Shown piece by piece: positions 9,490 to 54,925 of a stretch of DNA of 64,000 nt (its first letter is position 1; each line of letters begins with the position of its first letter). Both the position numbers and the translations under genes were made by a program. Origin of the DNA: Prevotella sp. (GTDB lineage: Bacteria > Bacteroidota > Bacteroidia > Bacteroidales > Bacteroidaceae); the NCBI GenBank assembly GCA_017462915.1, contig JAFTQG010000049.1:124001-188000 (forward strand). The letters are read 5' to 3'. The notes under the pieces are model-generated. The model worked only from the letters and a program-made list of their open reading frames with translations. It made no database searches and had not been told where the DNA came from.

Positions 9490-9760
9490 GAGCATTTTTC
9501 ATCACATGTCACTGCTTTTACATTGATTCACAGTATTTTATCCAGCAAGCGGCAGTCCTCTTGCAACGGAAGCGCAGGGATGCAAAAACAGAAGGTGACC
9601 TTTTACACAGCAAAAGGTCACCTTCTATATGGCAAAACGTAACCTTTTGGCTCTCAAAAGGTCACCCTCAGGAAAACAGCAAGCCACTCCCACCAAAACA
9701 GGGAATGACATTGCGCATGAAATAAGCCACACTCTATATTCCCTTATCTATCTTCTGACA
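9490..9760. other. Convergent intergenic region holding repeat array 1
   Basis: No gene is supported between porT and the 5'-nucleotidase terminator. The stretch contains the 22-bp repeat array at 9590-9677 and otherwise AT-rich sequence. A short open frame here simply reads through the repeats in changing register. Confidence 0.5.
9590..9677. repeat. 22-bp palindromic tetrad array, copy 1
   Basis: Four units start at 9590, 9612, 9634 and 9656, an exact 22-bp pitch. The unit consensus over all four arrays is AAAAGGTSACCTTTT followed by about 5 variable bases and GC. Cores here are GGTGACC, GGTCACC, a degenerate CGTAACC and GGTCACC. Sister arrays are at 23450, 37084 and 54506. Confidence 0.85.
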
Positions 9761-9805
9761 AAACAAAATCAGGCGGCATCCGTCATATACGGATACCGCC
9801 TGATT
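9761..9805 (-). terminator. Terminator of the split 5'-nucleotidase operon
   Basis: Inverted repeat AATCAGGCGG...CCGCCTGATT, extended by ATCCGT/ACGGAT. On the minus strand it is followed by a T-rich TTTTGTTTTG. It lies just beyond the stop of the metallophosphatase gene. Confidence 0.75.
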
Positions 9806-9873
9806 GCTGTAAACGGCATTGTGGTCTTCCCACATGCCACCATCCATATCCTTGACGGACAGGAAAATAAATA

Positions 9874-10716
9874 TCATTTCTCCAGTTCAAGGACAATCTT
9901 GCCGACATATATTCCCGACTTTCCGTTCTGGTCGACAGGGACATCGCGGCCGTCAAGGTCCTTGACATACTCGAGTTCTGTGAAATAACTGTGGCTATGG
10001 CCTCCGAGGACAATATCTATGTCTCGTGAGCCTTTTATCATCCCTATATCGCCACGCTCGTCCCAACCGAGATGAGAGATACAGATGACTACATCACACT
10101 TCTTCTCCTTTTTCAGGAAAGTGCCCATCTTCAGGCCGCAGGCGACAGGGTCGTTGTAGACAACGCCCTCGCAGTTCTTTGCGAAGACAAGTCCCTCGAG
10201 CTTCGGGCAGAGGGCAAACATGCCTATTTTCAAGCCGTTACGCTTGATGATGGTATACGGCTTGATAAGTCCGTCAAGCTCCGTACCCTTGAAATCATAG
10301 TTGGAGCAGATAATCGGGAACTTCGCCATACGGGCATTGCGTGCCAGATTCTCAAGTCCGTAGTCCCACTCGTGGTTGCCTATCGTAGAGGCGTCACAGC
10401 CCATCTCGTTCATCAGCTTTATCTCCACGTCACCCATGAACAGGGTATAGTATGAAGAGCCCTGGGAGAAATCGCCCGAGTCGATATAGAGAAGCGAAGG
10501 GTCCTTCTTGCGCTCCTCGTTGATAAGCGTCATGCGTCGCAGGTATCCGCCGCGCCCAGCCACATTCTTGTCGGCAAGATTAGGGTTCAGCGGCAATATG
10601 CAGGAGTGCGTGTCGTTTGTGTGAAGTATAGTCAGCCGCTTCTGTGCATAGCACGGCAATACCGTGCAGACAATGATGCAGAAGACAGCAGCCTTGGTCT
10701 TTATGAAGCTAATCAT
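9874..10716 (-). CDS. 5'-nucleotidase/UshA-type metallophosphatase domain protein, exported
   Basis: A 280-residue protein with a signal peptide (to about residue 24, CYAQ) followed by the N-terminal metallophosphatase domain of the UshA/5'-nucleotidase family. The dimetal motifs are visible: LHTNDTHSC, YIDSGDFSQGSS, TIGNHEWDYG (usually NHEFD), CISHLGWDE and VLGGHSHSY. The second UshA domain, which binds the nucleoside, is missing. It is encoded by the gene immediately upstream in the operon, so the two probably act together in the periplasm on nucleotides or sugar nucleotides. The length shows this is a natural single-domain protein and not a truncated one. Confidence 0.85.
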   Translation of the reverse strand: MISFIKTKAAVFCIIVCTVLPCYAQKRLTILHTNDTHSCILPLNPNLADKNVAGRGGYLRRMTLINEERKKDPSLLYIDSGDFSQGSSYYTLFMGDVEIKLMNEMGCDASTIGNHEWDYGLENLARNARMAKFPIICSNYDFKGTELDGLIKPYTIIKRNGLKIGMFALCPKLEGLVFAKNCEGVVYNDPVACGLKMGTFLKKEKKCDVVICISHLGWDERGDIGMIKGSRDIDIVLGGHSHSYFTELEYVKDLDGRDVPVDQNGKSGIYVGKIVLELEK

Positions 10717-10825
10717 GTTTTTACGCTTTTGTTTTGTTTACGTTGTATTTCATTCAGCCTCCACAGCCTATGGCAATACCGTGTCGGACACGTGCCACAG
10801 GCATGGCGGCATGACGGAGATGCTG

Positions 10826-11578
10826 TCACTTCAGCACCAGGCGCCCCTCTATCTCCGCGTCGATAATCTCTCCAGCCTTGCTCTTCTCGAGGAAATATTC
10901 CACTATGAACTCCCGTGTGCGGGCATGTTCATCCTTAGGGAACTTCATGTCAGAGCCCTTGGTCAGCTCAAGGAATCCGTCATTGCCCATGGCAAGATAA
11001 TCGAGCGTGACGATGCGGTAGACGCGGTTAGGGTCTATCGGTTCGCCGTTCAAGGTGACAGATTCTACCTTCCTGTCCTTTATTACAAGGGTTATTCCCT
11101 TCGACAGTCCGCATCCGTTGCTCTTCGCAATCTGGTCAAAGAGGATATTCATCTGGGTGCCTGTCAGGGATATGAAGGATATATAGTTCTCAAAAGGAGC
11201 GACATCGTTGACATCTCCGAATGTCACATCTCCGGCAGGAAGTGCCGCACGGATACCTCCCATGTTGTATATGCCGAGGTCTGGATTCTCGCCATAACGC
11301 CGTCCCTGCCATACCATGATGTCGGCAAGAAGATTGGAAAGCTCGCTTTCCGGATTATGCGCCGCCATATACTTGGCGACCTTGCCAACGACCGGCGACA
11401 TGATGGAATCCACAACGTGCTTGTAGGGCGCAAGAACCTCCATGCCACGGGCATCCGCCACGAAGGTGCTGTCGATGAGAATGCGCTCCCTCGTGACATT
11501 GGCGACATGGTATTTCTGTGCAAAAGCGGAAATGGCAGTCGTCAAGAAGACGACTGCCATAACAATATATTTCTTCAT
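10826..11578 (-). CDS. 5'-nucleotidase C-terminal domain protein, exported
   Basis: A 250-residue protein with a signal peptide (residues 1-21, AISAFAQ), then only the substrate-binding C-terminal domain of UshA-type 5'-nucleotidases. Recognisable stretches are LGIYNMGGIRAALPAGDVTF, VNDVAPFENYISF and the base-stacking region TLDYLAMGNDGF. It lies 109 bp upstream of the separate catalytic-domain gene. In transcription order the C-terminal domain therefore comes first, the reverse of the fused enzyme. It starts 9 bp after the aldolase stop, so aldolase and the split nucleotidase may be cotranscribed. Confidence 0.85.
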   Translation of the reverse strand: MKKYIVMAVVFLTTAISAFAQKYHVANVTRERILIDSTFVADARGMEVLAPYKHVVDSIMSPVVGKVAKYMAAHNPESELSNLLADIMVWQGRRYGENPDLGIYNMGGIRAALPAGDVTFGDVNDVAPFENYISFISLTGTQMNILFDQIAKSNGCGLSKGITLVIKDRKVESVTLNGEPIDPNRVYRIVTLDYLAMGNDGFLELTKGSDMKFPKDEHARTREFIVEYFLEKSKAGEIIDAEIEGRLVLK

Positions 11579-11587
11579 TTGTAGAAT

Positions 11588-12586
11588 TTAGAGTTTATCG
11601 TTAGAGCCGAGCACGTCAACAATCTTGTGGATATACATGTCCTTCATTGCTGTACGGGCCGGTGTAAGATACTGACGTGGGTCGAAATGACTTGGGTTCT
11701 CAGCAAGATACTTGCGGATAGCCGCTGTCATTGCAAGACGTGAGTCAGAGTCGATATTGATCTTGCATACGGCAGACTTGGAAGCCTCGCGGAGCTGCTC
11801 CTCAGGAATACCTACAGCGTCAGGGAGCTTGCCGCCGAACGCGTTGATTGTGTCAACACAGTCCTGTGGCACGGAAGAAGAGCCGTGAAGCACGATTGGG
11901 AAGCCAGGGAGCTTCTCCTCTATCTCGTGGAGGACATTGAAAGCGAGCGGAGGAGGAACGAGCTTGCCTGTCTTAGGGTCGCGTGTGCACTGCTCCGGTG
12001 TGAACTTGTATGCACCGTGTGATGTACCGATGGAGATGGCAAGAGAGTCACAGCCTGTACGTGTGGCAAAGTCAATGACCTCCTCAGGCTTTGTATAGTG
12101 AGACTCCTCAGCGACAACTTCGTCCTCTACGCCGGCGAGGACACCGAGCTCTGCCTCTACAGTGACGTCAAACTGATGTGCATATTCAACGACTTTCTTC
12201 GTGAGGGCGATATTTTCCTCGTAAGGAAGAGAAGAGCCGTCGATCATTACTGAAGAGAATCCCATATCTATGCAAGACTTGCAGGTCTCGAAAGAGTCAC
12301 CGTGGTCAAGGTGGAGAACTATCTCAGGATTAGGGCAACCCAGCTCTTTTGCATACTCGACAGCACCCTCGGCCATGTAGCGGAGGATTGTAGGATTTGC
12401 ATAATTGCGTGCACCGCGTGATACCTGCATGATGACAGGGGACTTTGTCTCAACTGCAGCCATAACGATAGCCTGCATCTGCTCCATTGTATTGAAGTTA
12501 AACGCTGGAATGGCATAGCCGCCAGCAACAGCCTTCTTGAACATCTCACGAGTGTTCACGAGACCAAGGTCTTTGTAATTTACCAT
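11588..12586 (-). CDS. fba: Class II fructose-1,6-bisphosphate aldolase
   Basis: A zinc-dependent aldolase that splits fructose 1,6-bisphosphate to dihydroxyacetone phosphate and glyceraldehyde 3-phosphate. Family features in the 332-residue sequence are AIPAFNFNTMEQMQAI at the start, HLDHGDSFETC (zinc-binding His and catalytic Asp), the IGTSHGAYKF segment and HGSSSVPQDCV, which carries a further zinc His. The length and the FDPRQYLTPARTAM tail fit the type found in Bacteroidetes. A strong promoter precedes it. Confidence 0.95.
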   Translation of the reverse strand: MVNYKDLGLVNTREMFKKAVAGGYAIPAFNFNTMEQMQAIVMAAVETKSPVIMQVSRGARNYANPTILRYMAEGAVEYAKELGCPNPEIVLHLDHGDSFETCKSCIDMGFSSVMIDGSSLPYEENIALTKKVVEYAHQFDVTVEAELGVLAGVEDEVVAEESHYTKPEEVIDFATRTGCDSLAISIGTSHGAYKFTPEQCTRDPKTGKLVPPPLAFNVLHEIEEKLPGFPIVLHGSSSVPQDCVDTINAFGGKLPDAVGIPEEQLREASKSAVCKINIDSDSRLAMTAAIRKYLAENPSHFDPRQYLTPARTAMKDMYIHKIVDVLGSNDKL

Positions 12587-12645
12587 AGTTTTGATTTGTT
12601 TTTATATAGTTGGATGATTTTATACGGTACTGATTTTTAATACCG

Positions 12646-12677
12646 CAAAGTTAAGAAAATTCTCAATAAGTACCAAA
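12646..12677 (-). promoter_or_regulatory. Promoter of the aldolase gene
   Basis: Minus strand: TTTGG (12677-12673), 19 nt, TAACTTTG (12653-12646). The match to the Bacteroidetes consensus and spacing is exact. Confidence 0.75.
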
Positions 12678-12723
12678 AAGTTTGCCAGTTTTTTTGCCAT
12701 TTCAAAGAAAAATAGTATAGATA

Positions 12724-12755
12724 TTTGGCTAATTCGGTTTTTTTTTGTTATTTTG
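12724..12755 (+). promoter_or_regulatory. Promoter of the malic enzyme gene
   Basis: Plus strand: TTTGG (12724-12728), 19 nt, then TTATTTTG (12748-12755). The second base of the downstream box is T and not A. It lies about 65 bases before the start codon and is divergent from the aldolase promoter. Confidence 0.65.
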
Positions 12756-12819
12756 CATCAAGTTTTTTATATTCAAAACCTCACGCACGATAACTGAACT
12801 TTTTAATATATAGATTATT

Positions 12820-15102
12820 ATGGTGAAAATTACTAAAGAAGCCGCTCTCGAATACCACGAGACCGGCCGACCTGGCAAGATTGAGGTTGTGCCAACCAAA
12901 CCTTACCGAACACAAACAGACCTTTCACTGGCTTATTCGCCCGGTGTAGCCTACCCCTGCCTGGAAATCCAAGAGAATCCCGATGCAGCCTACAAGTATA
13001 CAGACAAAGGTAACCTTGTTGCCGTCATATCCAACGGTACCGCAGTCCTCGGACTGGGCGACATCGGCGCGATGTCCGGCAAACCGGTAATGGAGGGTAA
13101 AGGACTTCTTTTCAAGATATACGGCGGTGTCGATGTCTTTGACATTGAAGTGAACGAGAAAGACCCTGAGAAATTCTGCGAGGCTGTAGAGAAGATTGCG
13201 CCTACATTCGGCGGTATCAACCTCGAGGATATCAAGGCGCCTGAATGCTTCTATATAGAGGAACGCCTGAAGAAGTCGCTCGACATCCCTGTCATGCACG
13301 ACGACCAGCACGGCACGGCCATCATCTCTTCTGCCGGACTCCTCAATGCGCTTGAGGTGGCAGGAAAGAAGATTGAGGATGTAAAGATTGTCGTCAGCGG
13401 TGCAGGCGCAGCAGCCATCATGTGCACAAAGCTTTATGTGGCTCTCGGCGCAAGACTCGAGAATATCCTTATGCTCGACTCCAAGGGTGTGATAACAAGC
13501 GACAGACCTAACCTCACGGAGCAGAAGAAGTTCTTCGCGACAGAACGCCGTGACGCACATACTCTCGAGGAGGCCATGAATGGCGCAGACGTGTTCCTCG
13601 GTCTCTCGAAGGGCAATGTCGTCAGCCAGGACATGATACGCTCCATGGCAAAGAATCCTATCGTATTCGCCTGCGCAAACCCTGTTCCGGAGATTTCATA
13701 CGAGGACGCCATGGCTGCACGTCCGGATGTCCTCATGTCAACAGGACGTTCCGACTATCCTAACCAGATAAACAATGTCATCGGATTCCCTTACATCTTC
13801 CGCGGCGCACTGGACGTAAACGCCTCTGCCATAAACGAGGAGATGAAGATTGCGGCAGTACATGCCATCGCCGACCTTGCAAAACAGCCTGTGCCAGACG
13901 TAGTGAACCAAGTATATAAGGTGAACAATCTCACGTTCGGCCCTGACTATTTCATACCGAAACCTGTAGATCCACGCCTCATCACTGAGGTATCCGCCGC
14001 TGTGGCGAAAGCCGCTATGGACTCTGGTGTGGCACGCACGCCGATTACCGACTGGGAAGCATACAAGCGTAACCTCCGCCGCAAGATGGGACAGGAGACG
14101 AATGTGACGCAGTCTCTGTACGAGACAGCCCGCAAGCACCCTCAGAGAGTGGTATTCGCGGAAGGACTTCACCCTACAATGATTAAGGCTGCCGTGCAGG
14201 CAAAGCAAGAGGGTCTCTGCCAGCCTATCCTGCTCGGCAACGACGAGATGATAGCAAAGAAAGCCGCAGAGCTTGACCTCGACCTTACAGGAGTCGAGAT
14301 TGTCAACCTCCGTCATGACAACGAGATGGGCCGCCGTGAAAGGTATGCGCAGATACTTGCCGAGAAATGCTGCCGCGAAGGATATAACTTCGAGGAGGCT
14401 AACGACAAGATGTTCGAGCGCAACTACTTCGGCATGATGATGGTTGAGACAGGAGAAGCGGACGCATTCATCACTGGTGTCTACACAAAATTCTCCAATA
14501 CCATCAAGGTTGCCAAGGAGGTCATCGGCATACGTGACCATTACAAGCATTTCGGCACGATGCATATTGTCAATTCAAAGCGCGGTACATACTATATCGC
14601 CGACACTCTCATAAACCGTAATCCTGACAAGGAGACACTGAAAGACATCGCTCGCCTTACAGCAGACTCCATACGATTCTTCAACGACGAGCCTAAGATG
14701 GCGATGATTTCCTACTCTAACTTCGGTGTCGACAAGGACGGCAGCCCACGGCTCATGCATGATGTCGTCGCAGAACTGCAGGCAGAATACCCTGACCTGA
14801 AGATTGACGGCGAGATGTCTATAGACCTTGCCCTCGACCATGAGCGCAGAGACAAGAAATATCCGTTCCTCCGTCTGCACAATGAAGTGGTGAACTCCAT
14901 GATATTCACAAACCTCTCCGCAGCAAACTCTGCATACAAGCTCATCAAGGGCTTCTCTCCAGAGACCGAGGTGATAGGCCCTATACAGATGGGTCTGAAG
15001 AAGCCTATCCACTTCACTGACTTCGACTCCAGCGTACGTGACGTGGTGAACATCGTGGCGGTAGCTGTCATCGACGCTTATGTGAACAAGATAAAGCAGT
15101 AA
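12820..15102 (+). CDS. maeB: NADP-dependent malic enzyme with phosphotransacetylase-like C-terminal domain
   Basis: The 760-residue protein has an N-terminal malic enzyme (about 1-425) and a C-terminal phosphate acetyl/butyryltransferase-like domain (about 430-760), the MaeB architecture. Malic-enzyme motifs include [47 protein letters not shown] and the dinucleotide-binding [15 protein letters not shown]. It converts malate to pyruvate and CO2, giving NADPH. In MaeB proteins the C-terminal domain is thought to sense acetyl-CoA and not to catalyse transfer. Codon use is like that of its neighbours. It stands alone with its own promoter. Confidence 0.95.
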
Positions 15103-15190
15103 AGCTCACATTCCGGATATACAGGTTACAACCCAAACCTTCCTTGCCTCGTCATACAGGCATGTAGATATTCTGGAACAGATATTCAAT

Positions 15191-15229
15191 ACAATGCCCT
15201 GTATCGTATCAACCGATACAGGGCATTGT
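15191..15229 (+). terminator. Hairpin downstream of maeB
   Basis: A perfect 16-bp inverted repeat (ACAATGCCCTGTATCG and its complement) with a 7-base loop, 90 bases after the maeB stop. There is no T-tract, so intrinsic termination is uncertain. mRNA 3'-end stabilisation is possible. Confidence 0.55.
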
Positions 15230-15570: not shown

Positions 15571-15576
15571 CATCGT

Positions 15577-23449: not shown

Positions 23450-23537
23450 AAAAGGTCACCTTCCGCATTGCGAAGGGTGACCTTTTACACGACAAACGGT
23501 GACCTTTTGAACAGCAAAAGGTCACCGTTTATTATGT
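23450..23537. repeat. 22-bp palindromic tetrad array, copy 2
   Basis: Cores lie at 23454, 23476, 23498 and 23520, an exact 22-bp pitch: GGTCACC, GGTGACC, GGTGACC, GGTCACC. The bases before the first unit (acacgac) repeat the tail of a unit, as if an outer unit has decayed. The surrounding stretch 23223-23820 holds no supported gene. Confidence 0.85.
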
Positions 23538-23962: not shown

Positions 23963-25066
23963 TTACCGTTTCAATGCAAGGTTGTAGTTATAGTATTTTG
24001 TATTGCCGGTAATATCCTCCACAACCCTAAGGAACGGAGGGAAATTGACCTCCTCATGGCAGGTCTTCTCCTTTGTCTCGAGAATCATGAGACCGGATTC
24101 GGGCGTGAGATAGGTGTCAAGTTCGAAATACTGTCCGCACCAGATGAAGCTGCGACGCTGTTTGCGTATCGTGACACGGTACGGGTCTGCCTGTTGCAGG
24201 AGTGACTCGTAGAGGCTGTTGCTGACTTGACGCTCGGTGACAATCTTCTCTTTCGGGGAAATCATCTTTGTCGTGGTATGGATGTTTATCGCCTGTCCAT
24301 CCTGCCGGCGGCGGCGCAGACGCACCTCATATCCCGGGTCGGCGACAAGGTATGTCTGGATAATCTCGCTCTCGATGCACTCCGGCATATCGCCGATTAT
24401 CTCCACAATATACTTGCGCTCCTCCTTTACAGGCAACGGAAGTTCCAGCACCTGGGAGATTTCCGTGAGCACACGGTTGAGTTTCAGGTCAAAGTCAGAA
24501 CTGTTGTCTATGACGCGGACATGCGGATGGGTAAACCATGCATCGAAGACTTTATGGTCAAGCATACGCGCTATCCGCAGTCCCTCCTCGTTGGCCTGCT
24601 CATAGCGGTTGGCATTAGTCTCTGTGGTATAGAACTCCTCGGCGCCGTCGGCTGCTGTGACAAGATGCAGTACAGCGTCGTAACGGTCACGCAGCTCGTC
24701 GGTGGTGTACCCTACCTTCTGCGCCAGTTCTTCCCACATCTCGCGTGGGATGTAGGTGGAGATGTCCATTGTGCCGCGGTCGCAGATTATCACGCAAGGC
24801 GTATAGGGCGCAACAGTCTCGGCCATCCGCTGCACACTGTCCTCAAGTGCGAGCTGCAACTGCAGGATGACAAGCTCGCCCTCGTAATAGAACTTTTTGT
24901 TGTCCGTAAGATAATTCCAGCCTGTCTGGGTTATCATCGTCGGGACTTCGGGGACTGTAAAGACCTTATATCCTAGATTTGAGAAATGTTCCCTGATTCT
25001 AACAAGAGCTGTTGTCTTGCCGGCGCAAGGACCACCGGTAAGCACTATTCGTTTTATATTATTCAT
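23963..25066 (-). CDS. P-loop kinase-like ATPase fused to a CYTH domain
   Basis: A 367-residue two-domain protein. The first half (1-185) is an AAA_28-type nucleotide kinase-like domain with the Walker A motif TGGPCAGKTTAL (residues 10-21) and CDRGTMD as the likely Walker B region. The second half (about 205-360) is a CYTH/triphosphate-tunnel domain: ERKYIVEIIGDMPE supplies the ExExK-like entry strand, and alternating charged strands such as YEVRLRRRR and YRVTIRKQRR line the tunnel. Such proteins probably act on nucleotides or polyphosphate, but no substrate is known to me. It has its own terminator. Its start at 25066 is well supported by the Walker A position. Confidence 0.8.
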   Translation of the reverse strand: MNNIKRIVLTGGPCAGKTTALVRIREHFSNLGYKVFTVPEVPTMITQTGWNYLTDNKKFYYEGELVILQLQLALEDSVQRMAETVAPYTPCVIICDRGTMDISTYIPREMWEELAQKVGYTTDELRDRYDAVLHLVTAADGAEEFYTTETNANRYEQANEEGLRIARMLDHKVFDAWFTHPHVRVIDNSSDFDLKLNRVLTEISQVLELPLPVKEERKYIVEIIGDMPECIESEIIQTYLVADPGYEVRLRRRRQDGQAINIHTTTKMISPKEKIVTERQVSNSLYESLLQQADPYRVTIRKQRRSFIWCGQYFELDTYLTPESGLMILETKEKTCHEEVNFPPFLRVVEDITGNTKYYNYNLALKR

Positions 25067-28490: not shown

Positions 28491-28518
28491 AAATGATTGT
28501 ATTTCATTAGTCTATCTG

Positions 28519-28785
28519 CACGCTCGGCACAGTAAGTAAACTTACTCTGCTCTCGCTTAATCAAGTGGTTGGATTTCGTCCGACTATTTTCACGCTCGGC
28601 ATAGTAAGTGAACATACTCTGCTCTCGCTTAATCAAATAGGTGGATTTCGTCCGACTATTTTCACGCTCGGCATAGTGAGTGAACTTCCTTTGCCCTCGC
28701 TTAATCAAATGGTTGGATTTCATCCGACTATTTTCACGCTCGGCATAGTAAGTGAACCAACTCTGCTCTCGCTTAATCAAATAGT
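28519..28785. repeat. 72-bp tandem repeat array upstream of tadA
   Basis: Three full units start at 28545, 28617 and 28689, with partial units at each end (about 3.7 copies). Units differ at only a few positions. Because 72 is a multiple of three, one minus-strand frame stays open through all copies and encodes a 24-residue repeat (containing YAERENSR). That frame ends in the ATGA overlap with tadA at 28487-28490. I do not call a protein gene here: composition is odd and there is no homology that I know. Confidence 0.8.
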
Positions 28786-29054
28786 TCTTTTTTACACCTT
28801 ATTTCTATATATACCTTGTATCAAATAAGCATTTATAGAGTATTTCTATAACATATCAAGTATATTTTCTGAAAATTACAGAAAGTACACATGAGACCGT
28901 AAAAAGACCTGCGTGAGACTATGTATGCAACTAAAATAGGCAGGATTGATGCTATCCATATGCTGCCTACCTTTTTACAATTCGACCAACATTAGACGTA
29001 ATAGAAACTCTGCATAATGCTTATCTCTGCGATTCGACATACAGCAATAACTGA
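28786..29054. other. AT-rich intergenic stretch
   Basis: Nothing supportable is seen between the tandem repeat and the terminator of the TPR gene. Confidence 0.4.
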
Positions 29055-35625: not shown

Positions 35626-36819
35626 TTATTTAAGAGAAGCGAGACATTCTTTTATCCTGCGCATTGCCTCGACGATATTCTCGTCGCTCGTGGCATAGCT
35701 CATGCGGAAACACTCTGGAGAGCCGAAGGCGTCGCCTGCGACTGTCGCCACATGGCCTTTCTCGAGGAGGTAGAGGGCGAGGTCTGTAGAGGTGTTTATC
35801 ACCGTGTCGCCGCAGCTCTTGCCGAAGAAGCTCGAGCATTTTGGGAAGAGATAGAACGCTCCATGAGGGTCATTGACCTCCAGTCCCGGGATTTCCTTGG
35901 CAAGTTTCACGATAAGGTCCTTGCGGCGTTCGAAAGCCTTGCGCATATCCTCCACGCACTGCTGGTCGCCGGCGAAGGCTGCCTCGGCGGCTTTCTGCGA
36001 TACGGAGCATGGGCCGGACGTGTACTGTCCCTGGAGCTTGTTGCAGCCCTTCACTATCCATTCAGGCGCGGCGATGAAGCCTATGCGCCAGCCTGTCATG
36101 GCGTATGCCTTGGAGACGCCGTTGATTACGACTACCCTGTCCTTTATATCGGCAAACTCTGCCATGGAGGCGTGCTTGCCTACATAATTGATATGTTCGT
36201 ATATCTCGTCGGCGATGACTATGACACGCTCATGCTTCAGGAGCACATCCTTCAGTGCCTCGAGCTCTTCCTTGCTGTATACGGAGCCGGTAGGGTTGGA
36301 CGGCGAGCACAGGATGATGGCACGTGTCTTAGGCGTGATGGCGGCTTCAAGCTGCTCGGGAGTAATCTTGAAATCCTGCTCTATAGGAGCTTCGACAAAT
36401 ACGGGAGTGCCTTCTGCCAGAAGCACCATCTGCGGATACGACACCCAGTAAGGAGCCGGGATGATGACTTCGTCACCTGCATTGACAAGTGCCATGATGG
36501 CATTGCAGACAGACTGTTTGGCACCGTTGGAGCAAAGAATCTGGGACGGCTCGTAATCGAGGCCATTCTCCTTTTTCAGTTTGTTGACGATAGCCTTGCG
36601 CAGTTCCGGGTATCCCGGCACAGGACTGTAACGGCTCCAGTTGTCCTCGACAGCCTTGATAGCGGCAGCCTTGATATGGTCCGGAGTGTTGAAGTCAGGT
36701 TCACCCACGCTGAGGTTGATGACATCGATACCCTGTGCCTTCATCTCAGAGCTTTTCTGTGACATAGCAAGAGTTGCCGATGGCGCCAGACGGTTTAGAC
36801 GATCTGATAAATTTGACAT
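35626..36819 (-). CDS. Pyridoxal-phosphate aminotransferase, aspartate aminotransferase type
   Basis: A 397-residue class I aminotransferase. PLP-binding features are SNGAKQSVCNAIMALV, the CSPSNPTGSVYSKEEL loop, VIADEIYEHINY, the Schiff-base Lys in NGVSKAYAMTGWRIGF and the C-terminal Arg in FRMSYATSDENI. It closely resembles the bacterial Ib-type aspartate (or aspartate/prephenate) aminotransferases. It stands alone, with a TAATTTTG promoter box at 36869-36862. Substrate preference is not visible from the sequence. Confidence 0.9.
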   Translation of the reverse strand: MSNLSDRLNRLAPSATLAMSQKSSEMKAQGIDVINLSVGEPDFNTPDHIKAAAIKAVEDNWSRYSPVPGYPELRKAIVNKLKKENGLDYEPSQILCSNGAKQSVCNAIMALVNAGDEVIIPAPYWVSYPQMVLLAEGTPVFVEAPIEQDFKITPEQLEAAITPKTRAIILCSPSNPTGSVYSKEELEALKDVLLKHERVIVIADEIYEHINYVGKHASMAEFADIKDRVVVINGVSKAYAMTGWRIGFIAAPEWIVKGCNKLQGQYTSGPCSVSQKAAEAAFAGDQQCVEDMRKAFERRKDLIVKLAKEIPGLEVNDPHGAFYLFPKCSSFFGKSCGDTVINTSTDLALYLLEKGHVATVAGDAFGSPECFRMSYATSDENIVEAMRRIKECLASLK

Positions 36820-37083: not shown

Positions 37084-37171
37084 AAAAGGTGACCTTTCGC
37101 CATGCAAAAGGTCACCGTATAGACGGTGAAAGGTGACGGTCTGCCGAGCAAACCGTCACCTTTCGCAAAGC
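37084..37171. repeat. 22-bp palindromic tetrad array, copy 3
   Basis: Cores lie at 37088, 37110, 37132 and 37154, again an exact 22-bp pitch: GGTGACC, GGTCACC, GGTGACG, CGTCACC. The last two have paired decay at one arm. It sits 74 bp from the end of the LptF/G gene. Apart from it and the aminotransferase promoter, 36820-37244 shows nothing. Confidence 0.85.
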
Positions 37172-37244: not shown

Positions 37245-39170
37245 CTACGGCTGTGTATTATTATATAATAAGGTGTCAATCTCCTTGACAAGCGCGTCAT
37301 TGAGTTCGTGCACCTTCTTCAAGTCTGTGAAAAGGCGAAGACGGAACCGCCACATCCTTATATAAAGGAATGCGCCTACAGGAAACAGCAGGAAGGCCGC
37401 GACATTCATCCAGCGGCGGTCAAAGGGACGGGTATGCGCCTTCACCGATACCACAGGATACTGCTTCAGCAATTTCATGATGCTCTTCTCGCGCGTGTTG
37501 CCAAGGTCCTCTATCACACCTTCCAGCTCCGCGACTATGCGCTCCACCTCCTTGTCGGGGATGTAGACGAAGAACACCTTCAGGATGTTAGGCATGAGCC
37601 ACAGGCGGTGTTTCTGGTTGTAGTCGACGATGTCGCGCGTAATCTCCGCCAGCCTCGTCTTGTCCGCCTCGTAGTCCGGGTCGTCTATGATGACCTGCTT
37701 CATCGCGACACGGCGGCTCAGTCTCAGTCCGAGAATCTTGCGGAACGTGTCCGTGTACATGTCCATATTGAAGACGACGGAGTCCTTGTTGGCCTTGTAC
37801 GTGAAGAACGCCGCCGTAGGTATCAGCACCACAGGGGCTATGCCTTTGGCAAACCATACCGGCCAGTCGCCGATGCGCGCCATGCGGAAACCTGTATTGT
37901 CGAGGATATAGAAGATGATGAACACCACCACGGAGATTATCACCGGAACACCGAGACCGCCTTTCCTGATGATGGCTCCGAGGGGCGCACCTATGAAGAA
38001 GAACACCAGACAAAGGGATGCCGTGGTGAACTTGTTTATCCATTCAAGATAATGTTCGCGCACCACCTGGTGTCCGTCCTTAGCCATCAGTCCGCCGAAG
38101 GCAAGAAAATCCTTTGCCATCCTCACCTCGCTTGCTGTCTGCGTCATGGCCGTGCGCCTGTCGTCTGCCGAGAGGGAGGCATAGACGCTGTCCGGGTCGT
38201 ATGCCTTGCCGCCCGATTTCGCGAGGCGTGCACCGGTGACCGAGTCGCGCTTCTCAGGCGCATATTTGGCGAAATACTGTCGGTCGACATCGGTCTTTAT
38301 CGCCCTGCCGACACTGTCTATGGCATGGCGGGTCTTCACAAGACCCTCCTTGATGGCAGAGATGCTCTTGCCGCGTGCATCGCCGGCAAAGACATTATTG
38401 TCCACCTCAAGGTCGTCATTGTAATCGAGCACGATGCGCTTGTCCATGAATGTCTCCCTGCGGTAAGGCACACTGGCGGCACCTGCCATCTCCTGCGACT
38501 TCATATTCTCGAACCATTCGCCCGAATGGAGCGTGAGGACGATATGATGCTTGTCGGCTGTCGACTGCAGGCGGCCGGAGTCTGCAAGGATTATCGCCGC
38601 GTCCTCAAACGAGTCCGTCATCCTGTATATCATGACGCCGTACAGCATACCTGTGCCCACGTCTTTCTTCTGCACATAGAGATTACAGCCGGGGATGCCG
38701 TCGTAGAAGACACCCTCGGGGATTTCCAGTTCCGGACTCTTCTGCTTCATGGCGACAAGCAGCTGCGCCATCTTCTTGTGACATTTCGGCGCGATGTCGT
38801 TCTGGAAGAAATACGACCCCACTGTGATAAGCAACGCTATGGCTATCAGCGAGCGGAACGCCTGCATAAGCGATATGCCGGCAGCCTTTATGGCTGTCAG
38901 CTCCGAACTTTCGCCGAGATTTCCGAAGGCTATCAGCGACGACAGGAGGATAGCAAGAGGTATGGCCTGAGGCACAAGCATCAGACCCATATAGAAGAAG
39001 AACTTCGCCAGCACCTCCAGCGAAAGTCCCTTGCCTATCAGTTCGTCGACATAACGCCACAGGAACTGCATCATCAGCACAAACTGACAGATGAAGAATG
39101 TTCCTGCGAAAAGCAGTCCGAACTGTTTGGCAATAAATATATCGAGCTTCTTTATTCTGAACATAAACAC
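37245..39170 (-). CDS. LptF/LptG-family lipopolysaccharide transport permease, long form
   Basis: A 641-residue permease of the YjgP/YjgQ family that moves lipopolysaccharide from the inner membrane with the LptB ATPase. Three N-terminal helices (from LDIFIAKQFGLLFAGTFFIC) precede a periplasmic beta-jellyroll (about 130-370), and three more helices end near residue 470. The E. coli proteins stop there at about 360 residues in total. This one has a longer periplasmic domain and a C-terminal extension of about 170 residues, which includes another hydrophobic segment (AAFLLFPVGAFLYI). A long form is usual in Bacteroidetes. Promoter box TAACTTTG lies at 39221-39214. Confidence 0.88.
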   Translation of the reverse strand: MFMFRIKKLDIFIAKQFGLLFAGTFFICQFVLMMQFLWRYVDELIGKGLSLEVLAKFFFYMGLMLVPQAIPLAILLSSLIAFGNLGESSELTAIKAAGISLMQAFRSLIAIALLITVGSYFFQNDIAPKCHKKMAQLLVAMKQKSPELEIPEGVFYDGIPGCNLYVQKKDVGTGMLYGVMIYRMTDSFEDAAIILADSGRLQSTADKHHIVLTLHSGEWFENMKSQEMAGAASVPYRRETFMDKRIVLDYNDDLEVDNNVFAGDARGKSISAIKEGLVKTRHAIDSVGRAIKTDVDRQYFAKYAPEKRDSVTGARLAKSGGKAYDPDSVYASLSADDRRTAMTQTASEVRMAKDFLAFGGLMAKDGHQVVREHYLEWINKFTTASLCLVFFFIGAPLGAIIRKGGLGVPVIISVVVFIIFYILDNTGFRMARIGDWPVWFAKGIAPVVLIPTAAFFTYKANKDSVVFNMDMYTDTFRKILGLRLSRRVAMKQVIIDDPDYEADKTRLAEITRDIVDYNQKHRLWLMPNILKVFFVYIPDKEVERIVAELEGVIEDLGNTREKSIMKLLKQYPVVSVKAHTRPFDRRWMNVAAFLLFPVGAFLYIRMWRFRLRLFTDLKKVHELNDALVKEIDTLLYNNTQP

Positions 39171-41890: not shown

Positions 41891-44800
41891 TCAAAAGCCA
41901 TCGAAGTCGAAGTATTCGTCATCGTTTTCCACAGACTTCTTGCTGTCTTCCTTCCTGTCGGCAGGTGTCTCGCTTTTTGGAGCATCCTCATCTATAATCT
42001 CAAGGATATCACTGTTTATATCCATGCGGACGGTATTGCCGTTGTTCTGTGTCTGCGGCTTTTCTTCCTGCTTTGTCTTTATATCCTTTGTCTTTGTATC
42101 AACAGGGACTGTGACCGCCTTTTCTACCGGAGGCTCCTGTGGTTGCTCTACTACAGTTGTTTCATCGGAAGGAGTCTCCTGTGGTTGCTCTACCACAGTT
42201 GTATCATCAGCAGGCGCATCTTGCGGTTGCTCTGCAACAACTGTTACCGATGTATCCTGTATATCTGTCGGCTGTTCCGCCGGTTGCTCTGATTGCTCCT
42301 CAGGAACAACGACACTATCGTCTACTGCAGGAGCGTCATTCACAACAGGTGCATCGTCCACAATATCTGAAATCTCTGTATTCTCAGGCGCGACAGGCAT
42401 CTCCTCCGGCACAATGATACTGTTATCCTCTTCTGCTTCAGGAACAGCATTCTCTTCGTCCTCATCGCCTTTGGTCTCCGTGCCCGGTGTCATCTCCGGG
42501 TCATACTGCTCTGGAGATACCACCTGTTCCTCCAGCACGGCGATGGAAGGTCGTGGCAAAGGAGCGAAGTGCTCAGAATAGAATTTGTCATAGTCATTGT
42601 AGCTGAACTGCGCTCCCAAAAGCGGAAGATTGGATCTGCTTATGACAACATTGCGACTGCCCTTGGCGACAGACATAATCTGCGTATTACGATACAGCTC
42701 ACGTGCATACACCAATGCCTCGCCGAAATTGCGGAAACCGCTGACAGAAAGACGATGCATGTCACTGAAATTCTCTATCTCAATGTCAAAATTGCGTACA
42801 AGATAGCTTGTAAAATTATATTTCGCAAGATTGTAAAGCAACTGATTCTCATTAAGAGAGTCTGGATGATATGTCATGAGGAAGACAAACTCCTCATTCG
42901 GATTTGCAGAGAATGCGCTTGCCGTATCAACATCCTCAGCAAGCACTGTGGAGCGGTAGTCCCAGATGTTTGATATGTCAAACTTAGCCCCTCTCAGTTT
43001 TCTTCCAGCCTTGACACCATTTATTATCATTCCGGCAAGAGGAGAGACATCGCTCTGAGGATATTCGGCAACGACACGCTCCATGGCATGGAGACAACTG
43101 TCGGCATCGCCTTGATTGAGGCGTGTCATGCCGCCAATGAAAAGGAATTTGTCACGATGTGCCCCAAGAGGATAACGCGTCTCAGAGATAAGGCTGTTAC
43201 GCGATACTGTCTGGAAATTATCGGCCTTGAATGCATCGTATGTTTCAGCATACAGCGAGTCCTCCTTATGAGTACCATAGCGCATATTATCCTCAAAGTC
43301 AGGGTCATTGACTATCTTCGACCACTGCGAGTCCGCATGGCGTTCCGCAAGCAGTTCCTTATAGTGCCTTGCCTCGAGAGCATCCCCTTTTCTTGAATAC
43401 AGCAGGAACAGGTGATAATACAGTTCATCATTTCTCTCAAAATCAGGGAAGTCTGCCGAAAGGCGTTTCAGTTCTTTTTCCGAGAGAGGAAGATTATCCA
43501 ACTTGTCCTTGAATATCACACCAGCATTGAACAGTGCATCAGACAATATCTGATTAGAGGCCGCAAGTTGCTCTTCTGTAAAAGGAATTTGTGCAAGATA
43601 ATACTCACGTTTATGTGGGTCAAGAGCAGCCGAGTCAGCCTGCTCCGCCATATCGTCACCACCCGAGATAGAATCGTTTCCTGCCACATCCATGCTGTCC
43701 GTCCGTGCATCCATACCGTCTGCATCATTCCAAGAAGCCGAAGCCACAACGGTCTTGTTTGCGCGCTGCCAGTCATCAGTATTCTCTCTCCTGCCCCACT
43801 GTCGGATAAACATCTGTTTACCCTGCTGCACGGCATTAGGATTGTAAAAATAGAAAGTGCTTGTCTGCCCCATTCCAGGAGACTGCGGCATAGTTGGGGT
43901 ATTGTTTCCAGAGACATTACCCTGCGCGGCATTCTTCTGCGCCTCCTCTTCCAGTTTGTTGAGACGCTCTTCTTTTTCCTTCTTTTTAAGAGCGTCTATG
44001 ACACGGTCTATCGCCGCATTACGTTCCTTCTCGTCCATTTTGGCAAGACCTTGCAAAGAGTCCTGCAACTGGATATTGTCTGTATGAGGGACAAGGATGT
44101 CAAGAATCTTGGAACGCTCCGCCAACTGACTGTAATCGGGGCGGTCATTGTCGAGCAGTCCTATCGCCTCTCCATAGCAGCGACGTGCATCGCCAAACTT
44201 CTCCACTTGCCAATAAAGATCTCCGAGATGTAACAGCAGCACACCTTTCTCTATTCCAGAGCGAGTGGCTTCCCTATTGCCTCTTTCATAAGCGGCAATA
44301 GCCTGGGCAGTATCATTCTCGGCAAGATAGACATTGCCGATGGCATAATAAACCTGGTCAAGATACTCTGCATTCTTGTCCGAGCGTGCCATAGACTTGA
44401 GCTTTCCTATCTTTGACTTAGCCAAATCGCGAGGCATGACCTCTGTCATCGATATCCTCGCATTGAACTCAAGTTCGTAAGGAGGATTCTGACGGATACA
44501 ACGGCGGAATGCGGCATAAGCCTCCGTATTCTTTCCCATAGCGGCATAGACCTGTCCGAGGATATACCACTCACGTGCACGTTGCTTGGAACGCATCTCA
44601 TGACGGATAACTTTACGGAGATACACGGCAGACTGCTCAAGGTCTCCTGTGCGGAGATAATAATCGGCAAGAGTGTAGTCCCATTCTTTCTGTGCATGCC
44701 AGTCTATAGAGTCGCGCGACATATTGCGTATGACATCCTCCGCGTCATACAGCCAGTCTTGCTCTATATAGCATTTTGCCAGCCAGGCACGTGCCTTGCC

Positions 44801-50329: not shown

Positions 50330-50445
50330 ATATGATTGTTTTTGTTTTCCTGTTTACTTACCTTATTTTTATATAAGCGAATGGGCAAAATCAATGTACA
50401 GCATGTATATCTTGCCGTTTGATTTTGCTTGTTTTCCTCCACCAA

Positions 50446-51207: not shown

Positions 51208-51229
51208 TATCTTTATATGTATACTATAT

Positions 51230-52027
51230 TCAGATGAAATTGCACAGAACGGTGACTGCTCCTGCTATCGCGCAATATATGCCGAAATAGATGAGCTTGC
51301 CTTTCTTCACAATGTTTATCATCCATTTGCACGCCAGACATCCGCTGACGAAAGCCGCAATGAAACCTACGGCAAGGGGAAGCGTGTCTATGCCTCCGAA
51401 AGCCTCGTCGCCCTTGACGGCCTTGAGCACATCGAGCAGTGCCTCGCCGAGGATAGGAGGTATCACCATCAGGAACGAGAACTGTGCAAGGCTCTCCTTC
51501 TTGTTGCCGAGAAGCAGGCCCGTGGCTATCGTGGAACCGGAACGGCTGAGACCCGGCATGACGGCGCAGGCCTGTGCCAGACCGATGATGAAGGCGTCGC
51601 GCATACTGATTTTCCCTTTCTGACGTGGCTTGGCGTAGTAAGAGAATGTCAGCAGGGCGGCAGTGCACAGCAGCATAATGCCGACAATAAGCAGTCCTGA
51701 GCCGAATATCTCCTCCACAGTGTCCTTGAAGAACACGCCGACAATGCCTATCGGTATCATGCTGACAACGATATTGAGCATATACTTTGTCTCGTCGTTC
51801 ATCTCAAACTTGAATATGCCTTTCAGCAACCATACTATCTCGCTCCACAATATGACGAATGTGCTCATCACTGTCGCCACATGTACCGCCACGGTGAAGG
51901 CAAGATTCTCCTCGCCTTCTATGCCGAAGAGGCTCGCGCCGATGGCAAGATGGCCGCTCGAACTTACAGGAAGATATTCCGTAAGTCCCTGTATGAGTCC
52001 CAAGACAAGTGCCTGTAACCAATCCAT
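51230..52027 (-). CDS. uppP: Undecaprenyl-diphosphatase
   Basis: A 265-residue integral membrane phosphatase that recycles the undecaprenyl carrier for peptidoglycan and surface polysaccharides. The two active-site regions are [20 protein letters not shown] near the start and [18 protein letters not shown] near residue 165. It has about eight hydrophobic helices. It is followed by truB and preceded by a DUF3098 gene. Confidence 0.95.
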
Positions 52028-52080
52028 AACCTTATTTTATCGTATTTTTTGTATTTACTTTGAATATCCTCTTCTCTCTA

Positions 52081-52314
52081 TTACTCCTCAGTAGACTTAG
52101 GCTTGCGGATGATGGCGTATATTATCGACACAAAGCCTATGAATGTCACAACCGGCGCAACCTTTATACGGCGCACGCTGAAGATGTCGGCATTATAATG
52201 CTCCACCGTAGAACTGTCGCCGCACATGAGCAGCAGGCCGATGACGACGATGACGAAGCCTATACCCAAGGCTATGAAATTGCCTTTGGCAAATGCAAGA
52301 TTTTTCTTATCCAT
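52081..52314 (-). CDS. DUF3098 small membrane protein
   Basis: A 77-residue protein with two hydrophobic helices (FIALGIGFVIVVIGLLLMCG and APVVTFIGFVSIIYAIIRK) separated by a short segment starting DSSTVEHYNADIFS. It is typical of DUF3098, which lies between ftsX and uppP in Bacteroidetes. The function is not known to me. Confidence 0.85.
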   Translation of the reverse strand: MDKKNLAFAKGNFIALGIGFVIVVIGLLLMCGDSSTVEHYNADIFSVRRIKVAPVVTFIGFVSIIYAIIRKPKSTEE

Positions 52315-52372
52315 GTATAGAAGTTATTTTGTTTATCCTTATGAAAGTAAATTCCCTACGCCACGCCGCCGG

Positions 52373-53257
52373 CTAAATCTTGTATAAGTCCCCAGCCTTC
52401 ATCTTCAGGAACTTATTGACGGAGAACGACGAGCATATTGATGTTATCAGCAGTCCGAGGAGGAGCACAGAGCTTCCCGTTATGGCCATGACCATCCAGT
52501 CTGCGACGACAAGTATCCCCGGCTCCACTGTATACAGACCATAGACGCATCCGGCGAGGACAATATCCGCCACGATGCCTGCCAGCAGACCGATGAGAAG
52601 GGCACGCCTGATGAACGGCCAGCGTATGAATCCCCATGACGCTCCGACGAGCTTCATGGTGTGTATGGAGAAGCGGCGCGCATAGACACTTAGACGCACG
52701 GTGTTGTTTACCAGCGAGAACGACACGAACGTCAGCAGGGCGGCAAGAGCGAGGAGCACGATGCTGACTTTCTTCAGGTTGTCATTGACCTGGTCCATGA
52801 GGTCTTTCTGATATGTGACATCTGTCACCTTGACATTGGATTTCAGCTCCTTGGCTATCCATTTGAGAGAGTCACTGTTGGCATAGTCGGCATTGAGCTG
52901 CATCTCGATGCTGCCTACGAAAGGATTGCCGCCGAGAAACTCGGTAGGGTCTGAGCCCATCGCCTTGACATGCTCCTTCAGAGCCTGCTCCGGACTGATA
53001 TACGTCGTGTGTGAGGTATACGGACGGCGCTTCAGCTTCACGCAGAGATTATGCGCCTCCGGCTGTGTCATCTCCTCGCTGAGCATCACCGTCACCGTAA
53101 GATTCTCCTTCACATAGCTCGAAAGATTGCGGGCTGTGAGGACGGAGAACACCACCATGCCCAGGAGTATGAGCACGAGGGAGGTACTGATGCAGAGGGT
53201 GACTACTTGCAGTCCGCCATGGCGGCGACATTTCTTCTTGCGTTTATTTTTTGCCAC
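52373..53257 (-). CDS. ftsX: Cell-division protein FtsX
   Basis: A 294-residue permease-like protein with a transmembrane segment near residue 25, a periplasmic domain (about 45-165), and three C-terminal helices (from VSIVLLALAALLTFVSFSLV). RLSVYARRFSIHTMKLVGAS is the conserved FtsX cytoplasmic loop. With FtsE it controls peptidoglycan hydrolases at division. ftsE is not adjacent here. A promoter box TACCTTTG at 53292-53285 lies about 28 bases upstream. Confidence 0.92.
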   Translation of the reverse strand: MAKNKRKKKCRRHGGLQVVTLCISTSLVLILLGMVVFSVLTARNLSSYVKENLTVTVMLSEEMTQPEAHNLCVKLKRRPYTSHTTYISPEQALKEHVKAMGSDPTEFLGGNPFVGSIEMQLNADYANSDSLKWIAKELKSNVKVTDVTYQKDLMDQVNDNLKKVSIVLLALAALLTFVSFSLVNNTVRLSVYARRFSIHTMKLVGASWGFIRWPFIRRALLIGLLAGIVADIVLAGCVYGLYTVEPGILVVADWMVMAITGSSVLLLGLLITSICSSFSVNKFLKMKAGDLYKI

Positions 53258-53303
53258 TTTTTATCCAATTTACAAAATACCGTGCAAAGGTACTCAAAAA
53301 AAC

Positions 53304-54227
53304 TCACGCGCGCAAGAGATTAACCTTTTTTAGTAGCCTCCGTCCCCAAACGAGCATGAAGGCAAACAGCATACGGGTAAAGAGTATCCAGAACGCCGAT
53401 ATGCCGACGGCGGCGAACACGAGCGTGTCCTCGAGCATGGAGTGATTCATTATCAGGTGATAGTTCACCTCGTTGGCCTCTTCCCTCGTTATCGCCCCGG
53501 AGTCTTCCAGATCAAGCATCATGGCCGACCCGTAGCTTATGCCGAGGACATTGCCCACGAGCCAGAGGTAAGCGGCGTTTTCGGGCAGACCGAAAAACAG
53601 CATCACAGGGCGTAACGGCCTGTCGAGCAAGGGCATGACGCCGAACTCGCCGAGCAGACGCTGGACGACCATCAGACTGTATATCAGTCCGTAAATCATC
53701 AGCGACAGCTTCACGGAAGCGACAAGCCACACTTCCATGACGCTCCACACCGTGCCTGTCGCTTCTGCCTCCGGATGGGCTGTGAAAGGGCTGCTCATCC
53801 CGGGGAGTACGGCATTGAGGAACATTGCGGCAAGGAAGGCGGCGATGATTCTCAGTGTCGCCATCTTCCAAGGATTGGAGCCCACACGGCTTATCACCGC
53901 GCTCTCGAGTGGCAAGGCATGGCAGATGAGCACCATGATGGATATTATCGTCGCCTCGCGCAATGTCAGTTCCATGCTCAGCATCACGGCGAGACTGGCG
54001 TATGTGGTGACAGAGGCTCCTGTGAGGAACGCTATCGCCGAGGCTCCCGGCAGTCCCATGTACTGGAAGACGACATCCAGATACTGCGCCAGCCACGCTA
54101 TGACGCCGTAATACTGCAACAGTCTCACAAGCAGCGAGATAGGGAGCATTATCTTCAACAGCCACAGTGTCGTCTTCGTGGCTGGGCGAAACGCAGACTT
54201 GAACTGCGCCAAAACTCTATGATTCAT
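53304..54227 (-). CDS. Nucleoside-recognition (Gate) domain membrane protein
   Basis: I prefer the ATG at 54227 (MNHRVLAQFKSAFRPATKTT); a start 30 codons earlier adds a poorly conserved-looking segment. About 307 residues with six to eight hydrophobic helices and two Gate-type repeats (GASAIAFLTGASVTTYASLAV and LVGNVLGISYGSAMMLDL). It resembles the spore-maturation SpmA/SpmB-like permeases. The substrate is unknown. It ends about 45 bp before ftsX but has its own codons and may be independent. Confidence 0.75.
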   Translation of the reverse strand: MNHRVLAQFKSAFRPATKTTLWLLKIMLPISLLVRLLQYYGVIAWLAQYLDVVFQYMGLPGASAIAFLTGASVTTYASLAVMLSMELTLREATIISIMVLICHALPLESAVISRVGSNPWKMATLRIIAAFLAAMFLNAVLPGMSSPFTAHPEAEATGTVWSVMEVWLVASVKLSLMIYGLIYSLMVVQRLLGEFGVMPLLDRPLRPVMLFFGLPENAAYLWLVGNVLGISYGSAMMLDLEDSGAITREEANEVNYHLIMNHSMLEDTLVFAAVGISAFWILFTRMLFAFMLVWGRRLLKKVNLLRA

Positions 54228-54925
54228 TACGATACCACTTTTTACAGATAAGATTTTCTTCTTTAGATGTTCTTGAAAAAGGACAGCAGGAATTCCACAT
54301 ACATTATTATGCAGCACACCTGCACAACATGCACAGAATCGTCCGCAGATGCAAAATTACGAATAAATTCTGAAGTTTCCCTGTTTTTAATGGCTTTTTT
54401 ATAACGACCTCACCAAATACACGTATTACAAAATTGCATAAAAGATATGACATATAGACGTTAAGAGATACGACCATTATATTATTCCGTCACCATACAC
54501 AAAGCAAAAGGTAAGGGTTTGCCGTGCGAAAGGTGACCTTTTTACGGGCAAAGGGTGACCTTTTGCAAGGTAAAAGGTCACCCTCCGCAACGCGCTGTAA
54601 TACAGCAAAATAAGAGAAGCGTCTCCTTTCAGACATTTTTTCATTAAAAAAGCACACTGCATACCGTCATTTTTTCACGTAAAACGACATCTTATTCAAA
54701 ATAATTATGTACCTTTGCATAAGATAAGCTACACTGTGGCTGTAACGAACAAGTTCGGATGCGCTCGGTCTGCATTATCTTTGCATAGGCAACAGAAAAG
54801 CGTTTCCGCTCTGTTAACAATCCATAATTAGCAGTATACATTACAGAAATATGGAACAATTTTTGTAATTTTGCGACCAAAACAACGACTACGGAATAAA
54901 AAAGACATATCAACAGCGACAAAAA
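54228..54925. other. Divergent intergenic region with repeat array 4 and promoter-like boxes
   Basis: No gene is supported. The region holds the 22-bp array (54506-54593) and three plus-strand TAnnTTTG boxes: TACCTTTG 54710-54717, TATCTTTG 54776-54783 and TAATTTTG 54866-54873. None has a clear upstream box at 19 nt. The last is closest to the acyl-ligase gene. Confidence 0.5.
54506..54593. repeat. 22-bp palindromic tetrad array, copy 4
   Basis: Cores lie at 54510 (degenerate GGTAAGG), 54532, 54554 and 54576, with a 22-bp pitch. The others are GGTGACC, GGTGACC and GGTCACC. Confidence 0.85.

Follow-up and report, generated by a model that had tools for sequence, protein, structure and literature searches.

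Evenly spaced tetrads of palindromic units at a 22-bp pitch in the gene gaps of a Prevotella genome, a candidate binding platform

What purpose is served by arrays of short palindromes that recur, many kilobases apart, in the gaps between bacterial genes? The question is raised by a 64,000-nucleotide stretch of Prevotella sp. DNA (assembly GCA_017462915.1, contig JAFTQG010000049.1, positions 124,001 to 188,000; hereafter the window), in which an earlier note, made from the letters alone, had described four such arrays of four units each (tetrads). The four arrays were found where that note had placed them, all 12 unit-to-unit steps measured 22 bp, and the gap contexts that it had implied, one convergent, two codirectional and one divergent, were confirmed. 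The unit AAAAGGTSACCTTTT, searched with at most 3 mismatches, matched 15 times in the window, with 1.24 matches expected and a maximum of 4 in 100 shuffles; 14 of these matches lay inside the four arrays and the remaining one at 13005, and the array units starting at 37128 and 54506 are too decayed for this cut-off. Short of even odds, at a rough probability of 0.42, we read the tetrads as non-coding landmark sites, platforms that would be bound by a sequence-specific factor organising the chromosome. This reading is suggested by the pitch of about two helical turns, the fixed number and palindromic nature of the units, their slowly changing cores, the core dialects between species and the even spacing of the arrays. 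Directly observed are the anatomy of the arrays, the number and pitch of their units, their place between genes, their even spacing, the low change in the cores and a shared framework in which the cores differ.

The source genome is a 2.93-Mb draft in 59 contigs, of which 1.138 Mb (39%), taken as stretches, was surveyed by a four-unit weight-matrix scan. The surveyed part held 68 arrays, which rules out a peculiarity of the window. Sixty-six of them scored at least 39.6 and two were added at 40.1 and 31.2; everything else scored 0 or less except C24:6 (score 10), a broken array where a contig begins, which was left out of the count. The reversed-sequence control reached at most 27.7 in any region, and array C7:2578 (31.2) stands scarcely above that value. 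The number of units, given by the earlier note as exactly four in every array, was four in 59 of the 68 arrays at a threshold of 3 bits (55 at 0 bits and 56 at 5 bits) and has real exceptions, among them the five-unit array C12:12966, whose ortholog in the sister species G084 (L086:2887) has four, a 22-bp unit having been gained or lost. Median scores were near +20 for units 1 to 4 and about −12 for positions 0 and 5, compared to −19 for random sites, and a weak echo of the unit register was seen on both flanks as GTnAC one unit out. Genome-wide, 129 pairs of GGTSACC were separated by 4 to 34 bases, 127 of them at the exact 22-bp pitch (backwards control, 2). Core-to-core distances of up to 120 bp in the first 0.80 Mb were 22 (55 cases), 44 (35) and 66 bp (21), the exceptions being one of 87 and one of 109 bp. 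The window shuffles, the pitch-specific pair counts and this distance distribution rule out a chance origin. Random unit numbers and pitches, which the earlier note had named as evidence against its reading, were not seen over the survey.

Genes were called from hexamer-based open reading frames (ORFs; 801 genes, 76% coverage), and 62 of the 68 arrays could be classified by gap type, the 6 without a called gene on one side being left out. None of the 62 lay inside a called gene. It is this position that makes the arrays non-coding, whereas the argument from a pitch that is not a multiple of three, used earlier to the same end, is insufficient alone. Codirectional gaps held 30 arrays, convergent gaps 20 and divergent gaps 12, where gaps of at least 139 bp would predict 40, 9.4 to 11.1 and 10.8 to 12.0, respectively. 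Convergent gaps were thus enriched about two-fold, with P = 0.001 when the expectation is based on gap count and 0.007 when it is based on length; divergent gaps were not depleted among the 62 arrays.

The 47 gaps between neighbouring arrays averaged 15.6 kb, the shortest being 7,548 bp, and had a coefficient of variation (CV) of 0.42. When 68 arrays were dealt randomly into the 407 eligible gene gaps in 5,000 trials, the CV was 0.93 ± 0.11 and never fell below 0.62; gaps shorter than 7 kb, absent from the 47 observed, were expected 21.4 ± 3.1 times, with 12 in the lowest trial. The largest array-free gap, of 41 kb (C30:178587-219385), consists for the most part of codirectional ORFs packed together between about 188,000 and 211,800. 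A phage or island was considered for this gap and rejected, as all nine proteins scanned, drawn from 31 listed ORFs of 140 aa or more, match Pfam, mainly as polysaccharide enzymes. The even spacing is an addition to the earlier note, as are the species-specific cores and the pairing of units 1-2 and 3-4 considered below.

Along the arrays, A/T content showed a periodicity peak at 11 to 11.25 bp with a power of 0.60, compared to 0.23-0.26 in other gene gaps; the periodicity was strong over the 81 bp of the array and continued weakly into the flanks. Positive supercoils collect between converging genes, and the periodicity and the convergent excess would both suit strong DNA gyrase wrapping sites, about one per supercoil domain and commoner between converging genes, at which phased A/T tracts would bend the DNA round the enzyme. 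In the Escherichia coli gyrase motif the arms are periodic at 10.75 bp over 130 bp, and gyrase cleavage is enriched in BIME-2, one of the bacterial interspersed mosaic elements (BIMEs); the motif shares with the arrays the phased A/T-G/C periodicity near 11 bp and the intergenic repeats and differs in having no sequence-specific palindromic core and another array geometry (PMC6379681). In the Prevotella units it is the GTnAC core that is most conserved, above the A/T tracts, no separate cleavage centre is evident, and gyrase wrapping leaves the species-specific cores unexplained. We regard it as quite unlikely.

The single strands of the arrays fold into stem-loops, strong on both strands. Against a null of units drawn from different arrays, extra complementarity over 66 arrays was found between units 1 and 2 (z score 3.4) and between units 3 and 4 (z score 3.7), reached in none of 500 shuffles each, and these two pairs ranked first among the pairing registers scanned. 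The remaining four unit pairs did not covary in the same arrays (z scores −1.9 to 0.1), so one long cruciform with pairs 1-4 and 2-3 was rejected; column-pair covariation scores were noise. Tandem bidirectional hairpin terminators, or RNA 3'-end elements, with 1-2 and 3-4 as stem-loops flanked by A and T tracts, would account for the covariation and for the folds. The top-ranked terminator-like site of the scanned 36.5-55.5 kb of the window falls in tetrad 3, and to the convergent excess can be added the first ten loci of another array-bearing genome, G108, of which 6 are convergent, 4 codirectional and none divergent. Terminator function, however, would require neither a step held at 22 bp across loops and linker nor a 15-kb spacing, and the divergent gaps of the source genome hold arrays at the expected frequency. 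A further genome, G403, gave no clear covariation in 20 oriented arrays, the highest of the ten pair z scores being 2.0 (units 4-5); for G108 a hand count found units 1 and 3 complementary at their variable position in 14 of 34 arrays, with 17 expected. Hairpin-templated mutation could also give covariation. A role as terminators is in our view unlikely. That the step stays at 22 bp across loops and linker, and that A/T tracts recur every 11 bp, speaks for a constraint acting on the duplex, and the 1-2 and 3-4 covariation may be a local extra or the product of hairpin-templated mutation.

The units were compared with those of the sister species G084, whose flanking proteins have a median identity of 97%. 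Seventeen arrays were matched to counterparts in G084 next to corresponding genes; 16 of these pairs could be aligned (a9 failed), and rates were taken from the 11 gapless pairs, with a9, a15, a17, a37, a51 and a63 left out for gaps or truncation. In these pairs 4.2% of the GGTnACC positions other than the centre had changed (11/264), 9.4% of the arms (33/352), 18.2% of the centres (8/44) and 22.5% of the spacers (52/231), with a flank identity of 0.71-0.91. Since the spacers change about five times more than the cores, the cores look to be under purifying selection. Tetrad 3 of the window has an array at the equivalent place in G084, with 77 of 81 bases identical. The genes to the right of arrays C9:27452 and C24:45941 adjoin each other in G084 (C26:10048-12614) with no array between them, and this suggests a rearrangement breakpoint at the two arrays. 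Genome G149 is more diverged, with a median protein identity of 80% over 81 matched genes. Its arrays have mostly four units at 22 bp and mostly A/T centres (GGTWACC), spaced 5-21 kb apart. Nine source-genome arrays have two or more mapped neighbour genes; five of them have a G149 array beside those genes, and for array C6:28917 the G149 array lies between both neighbours.

Across the genus, the arrays were followed by a framework, RAAA-N7-TTTY-N7 repeated four times with at most 3 mismatches, in 120 genomes of at least 95% completeness. Its counts include longer arrays more than once, in shifted registers, and leave most source-genome arrays out (10 matches), and since the framework is palindromic in another phase, its reversed and complemented controls were uninformative and its backwards control was contaminated. 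Within the surveyed part of the source genome, alternative pitches gave 0 to 1 matches, compared to 18 for 22 bp with a 7-base inner gap. The framework was present in 80 of the 120 genomes, with different cores; 47 had at least 10 forward matches (hand count), up to 527. The strict GGTSACC form was found in 4 of 249 genomes including the source genome; relaxing it gave 14 of 398. G403, found through the backwards control of the looser search, has the common scaffold with cores GRYGCCC/GGGCRYC and mostly five units by the framework caller, which also took AT-rich chance sites that were excluded by eye from the G403 list. Among the matches listed, the core was GGGCTGC in G317 and GCTTAGC in G342. 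G108 has 231 exact tetrads, with GCGGCTS, CCTACGC, SAGCCGC and CAATAGG in fixed order in many of the arrays listed; among the 100 listed, the cores are nearly invariant and the spacers partly variable, and 2 of 99 gaps are shorter than 3 kb, compared to 21.9 expected, a weaker repulsion than in the source genome. An ORF of at least 70 codons runs across the array at seven of the first ten G108 loci and two of four G403 loci; as the arrays contain few stops, we read these ORFs as probably spurious.

Beyond the genus, an order-level framework search with at most 2 mismatches matched 8 of 198 genomes including the source, and most of these matches look like AT-rich chance sites. Four tetrad-like 22-bp copies were seen in G547, of the same family and another genus, and one possible tetrad-like array in G563, of another family (loci L264 and L269). 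Two-unit look-alikes, CAAAGGTSACCTTTG with a 22-bp step, occur in records titled Candidatus Doudnabacteria (L067, L087, L091). Genome G022, of the same genus as the source, has 21-bp repeats with the GGTSACC word (for example L195-L202), which were rejected as equivalents, being direct, unpaired and mostly of 4-9 copies.

Cores that differ by species also recall the marks by which cells recognise their own DNA for uptake, whose dialects spread by biased uptake as in the DNA uptake sequences (DUS) of Neisseriaceae. The even spacing would fit such marks. DUS are short single words, unlike the 81-bp tetrads. DUS have species dialects and inverted pairs that can form stem-loops, both features of the arrays, and occur in thousands per genome, nearly six thousand in one 2.4-Mb genome (PMC3630211). 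The arrays are far sparser, at about one per 15 kb and in gene gaps only, and an uptake role is highly improbable.

The strongest rival is a repeat with an insertion-spacing rule: an old family of the genus, similar to repetitive extragenic palindromes (REPs) or miniature inverted-repeat transposable elements (MITEs), which would be mobilised by a transposase in trans, insert into gene gaps only and be spaced by target immunity, with the tandem palindromes as internal sequence. A preference for gene gaps and for convergent gaps is usual for such repeats, and the copies in G108 are nearly identical, far more alike than the arrays of the source genome. G403 and G108 have conserved flanks beyond the repeat, TTGTAA...TAATTC-like, with inverted-repeat-like ends (L217-L222, L255, L277-L285). 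Ends resembling TTGTAANNNTAATTC (score of at least 9) were found at 19 of 20 flanks in G108 (2.6 expected) and at 19 of 38 in G403 (3.2), whereas they were near the control in the source genome (13/134, control 6.9) and not above it in G149 (1/36, control 2.1). A two-sided flank model beat its control, which ignores composition along the flank, and no conclusion was drawn from it. Among the 68 source-genome arrays the best pair shares 64 of 81 bases (median 51), so no recent copies were seen, in contrast to the near-identical dispersed copies by which MITEs are recognised. Cores change least and spacers most in the G084 pairs, and in G108 the spacers vary and the cores hardly do. A search confined to one transposase family, the Y1 type of IS200/IS605 (Y1_Tnp, PF01797), found no match in the source genome, G084, G102 or G108; the family is present in 52 of 120 genomes of the genus, including the array-rich G010, G219, G317 and G367. 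Mobilisation by a REP-associated tyrosine transposase (RAYT) was rejected for the source genome, where PF01797 has no match. Taken together, the alternative of a conserved mobile repeat, already raised in the earlier note, is not supported here as regards recent mobility, in view of the best pair and the missing Y1 transposase, and an origin as a repeat, to which the flanks of G108 and G403 would point, is in our view on the unlikely side.

The arrays were also compared with named repeat families. REPs and BIMEs with their RAYTs are clustered intergenic palindromic units in more than 100 copies per genome and in species-specific families, and BIMEs have been proposed as protein-binding sites with parts in the organisation of the chromosome and in termination (PMC2817692). 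The arrays share with them extragenic palindromes that are regularly stepped and alternate in orientation (pairs 1-2 and 3-4), a trait that does not establish membership by itself, and differ in their fixed four units, 22-bp step and even spacing and in the absence of the Y1 transposase and of the GTAG tag, which is not in the unit weight matrix. CGTC-tagged repeats are likewise short and palindromic, occur in Bacteroidetes too and have no dedicated transposase; they carry at one end a CGTC tag that is found neither in the unit consensus nor in the weight matrix, and the main text of the paper describing them does not contain the name Prevotella (PMC3733652). BrickBuilt of Porphyromonas gingivalis, a MITE enclosing a 23-nt minisatellite, is intergenic, belongs to the Bacteroidales and has tandem units of similar length, and the G108 and G403 arrays resemble it also in their conserved flanks; its 19 elements have direct 23-nt repeats in 1 to 22.8 copies and a leader and tail with inverted-repeat ends (PMC4596501), compared to 22 bp, mostly four units and ends of that kind near control level in the source genome. 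At gathering scores, Rfam found two tRNAs and no array family in the whole window, and at six array loci it gave sub-threshold matches only, mostly to microRNA models (best E 0.0048). The open-licence literature in PubMed Central yielded no description of such arrays, in line with the earlier note, which knew of none.

The four tetrads of the window are listed in Table 1. The window further contains a 72-bp tandem repeat at 28491-28786 (4.1 copies, 86% matches) and a 42-bp tandem repeat at 42129-42233 (2.5 copies, 84% matches). Simple repeats of the TTTAGTTGTT or GGTTATAGGTTTTGGGTTGTT type occur in gene gaps, at 1003-1055 of the window and in the flanks of arrays C14:50644 and C16:64007; in two cases they directly adjoin an array.

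Table 1. Position, units, folding and surroundings of the tetrads in the window (z, score of the single-strand DNA fold)
Feature	Coordinates	Strand	Unit starts	Fold or pairing	Gap	Neighbouring genes
Tetrad 1	9590..9670	.	9590, 9612, 9634, 9656	z −8.6	Convergent	Outer-membrane beta-barrel gene 8776-9489 (+); metallophosphoesterase gene 9874-10716 (−)
Tetrad 2	23450..23530	.	23450, 23472, 23494, 23516	z −10.0, two stem-loops	Codirectional	Right side: AAA-domain gene 23963-25045 (−)
Tetrad 3	37084..37164	.	37084, 37106, 37128, 37150	z −7.9	Codirectional	Aminotransferase gene 35626-36765 (−); LptF/LptG-type gene 37245-39164 (−)
Tetrad 3, units 3 and 4	37128..37164	.		Inverted pair, stem-loop possible on both strands (sequence, folds); matching changes GGTGACGGT / ACCGTCACC		
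Tetrad 4	54506..54586	.	54506 (decayed), 54528, 54550, 54572	z −4.7	Divergent	Nucleoside-recognition (Gate) gene 53304-54212 (−); AMP-binding/acyltransferase gene 54926-57439 (+)

If the tetrads are a binding platform, the four palindromic units would be bound on one helix face by a sequence-specific DNA-binding factor, with the A/T tracts every 11 bp setting the geometry and the core, GGTSACC in this genome, the specificity. Such sites would be kept at about one per 15 kb in gene-free gaps, with converging genes favoured over expectation, and this distribution makes local chromosome organisation, by anchoring, looping or the handling of torsion between transcription units, their likeliest job. 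We infer from the sequences a protein that reads the units, its co-evolution with the core and its role in organising the chromosome. As to the interpretation offered by the earlier note, the part that concerns selection on number, pitch and core is supported by the low core change in G084, the even spacing and the framework in the genus; the protein and its role are the conjectural part.

Several points weigh against a binding platform. The reader protein and its binding are putative, and the covariation of units 1-2 and 3-4 suggests pairing in single strands or cruciforms, which binding to duplex DNA does not need. The conserved ends in G108 and G403 belong here as well, and the spacing in G108 is less even than in the source genome (CV 0.79, 0.98 expected, P = 0.009). 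Forty of the 120 genomes have no framework match, so that the system either is not general in the genus or takes forms there other than the one searched for. Positions also turn over: at least arrays C24:45941 and C30:56298 have no called G084 array beside the mapped gene, and four of the nine arrays compared have no called G149 array (C24:85201, C20:32931, C9:27452 and C18:20644), the C20 block having a G149 array in a different gap instead. The case for conserved position is weakened by the count of only five of nine in G149 and by the choice of loci in G084, where the 17 pairs are a biased sample because some loci were chosen for containing arrays.

The wider proposal is more tentative than the binding platform itself. 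It would hold that in Prevotella-type bacteria arrays of palindromes, few and fixed in number and 22 bp apart, are set roughly evenly every 10-20 kb, share an A/T-tract scaffold and are read by a fast-evolving factor through species-specific core dialects, forming a landmark system for the whole chromosome. Nucleoid sites such as matS, read by MatP, are dispersed palindromes recognised by an organising protein as well; they are single sites, confined in the case of matS to one region, and are not known to form tandem tetrads. We know of no other bacterial system in which evenly spaced binding arrays mark a whole chromosome, nor of sequence landmarks at a spacing of 10-20 kb.

How bacterial chromosomes are divided into domains of 10-20 kb is an open question, for which the arrays offer candidate sites, about 170 per genome if the 68 arrays in 39% of the source genome are extrapolated. 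They combine a clear anatomy with natural species variants and with rules of pitch and number, in an abundant gut and oral genus. Should they instead be an old repeat, a spacing rule and a four-unit design that were kept despite sequence change would also need explaining. If the landmark role holds, the tetrads would be categorically new; otherwise they would take their place among the dispersed palindromic sites of bacterial chromosomes.

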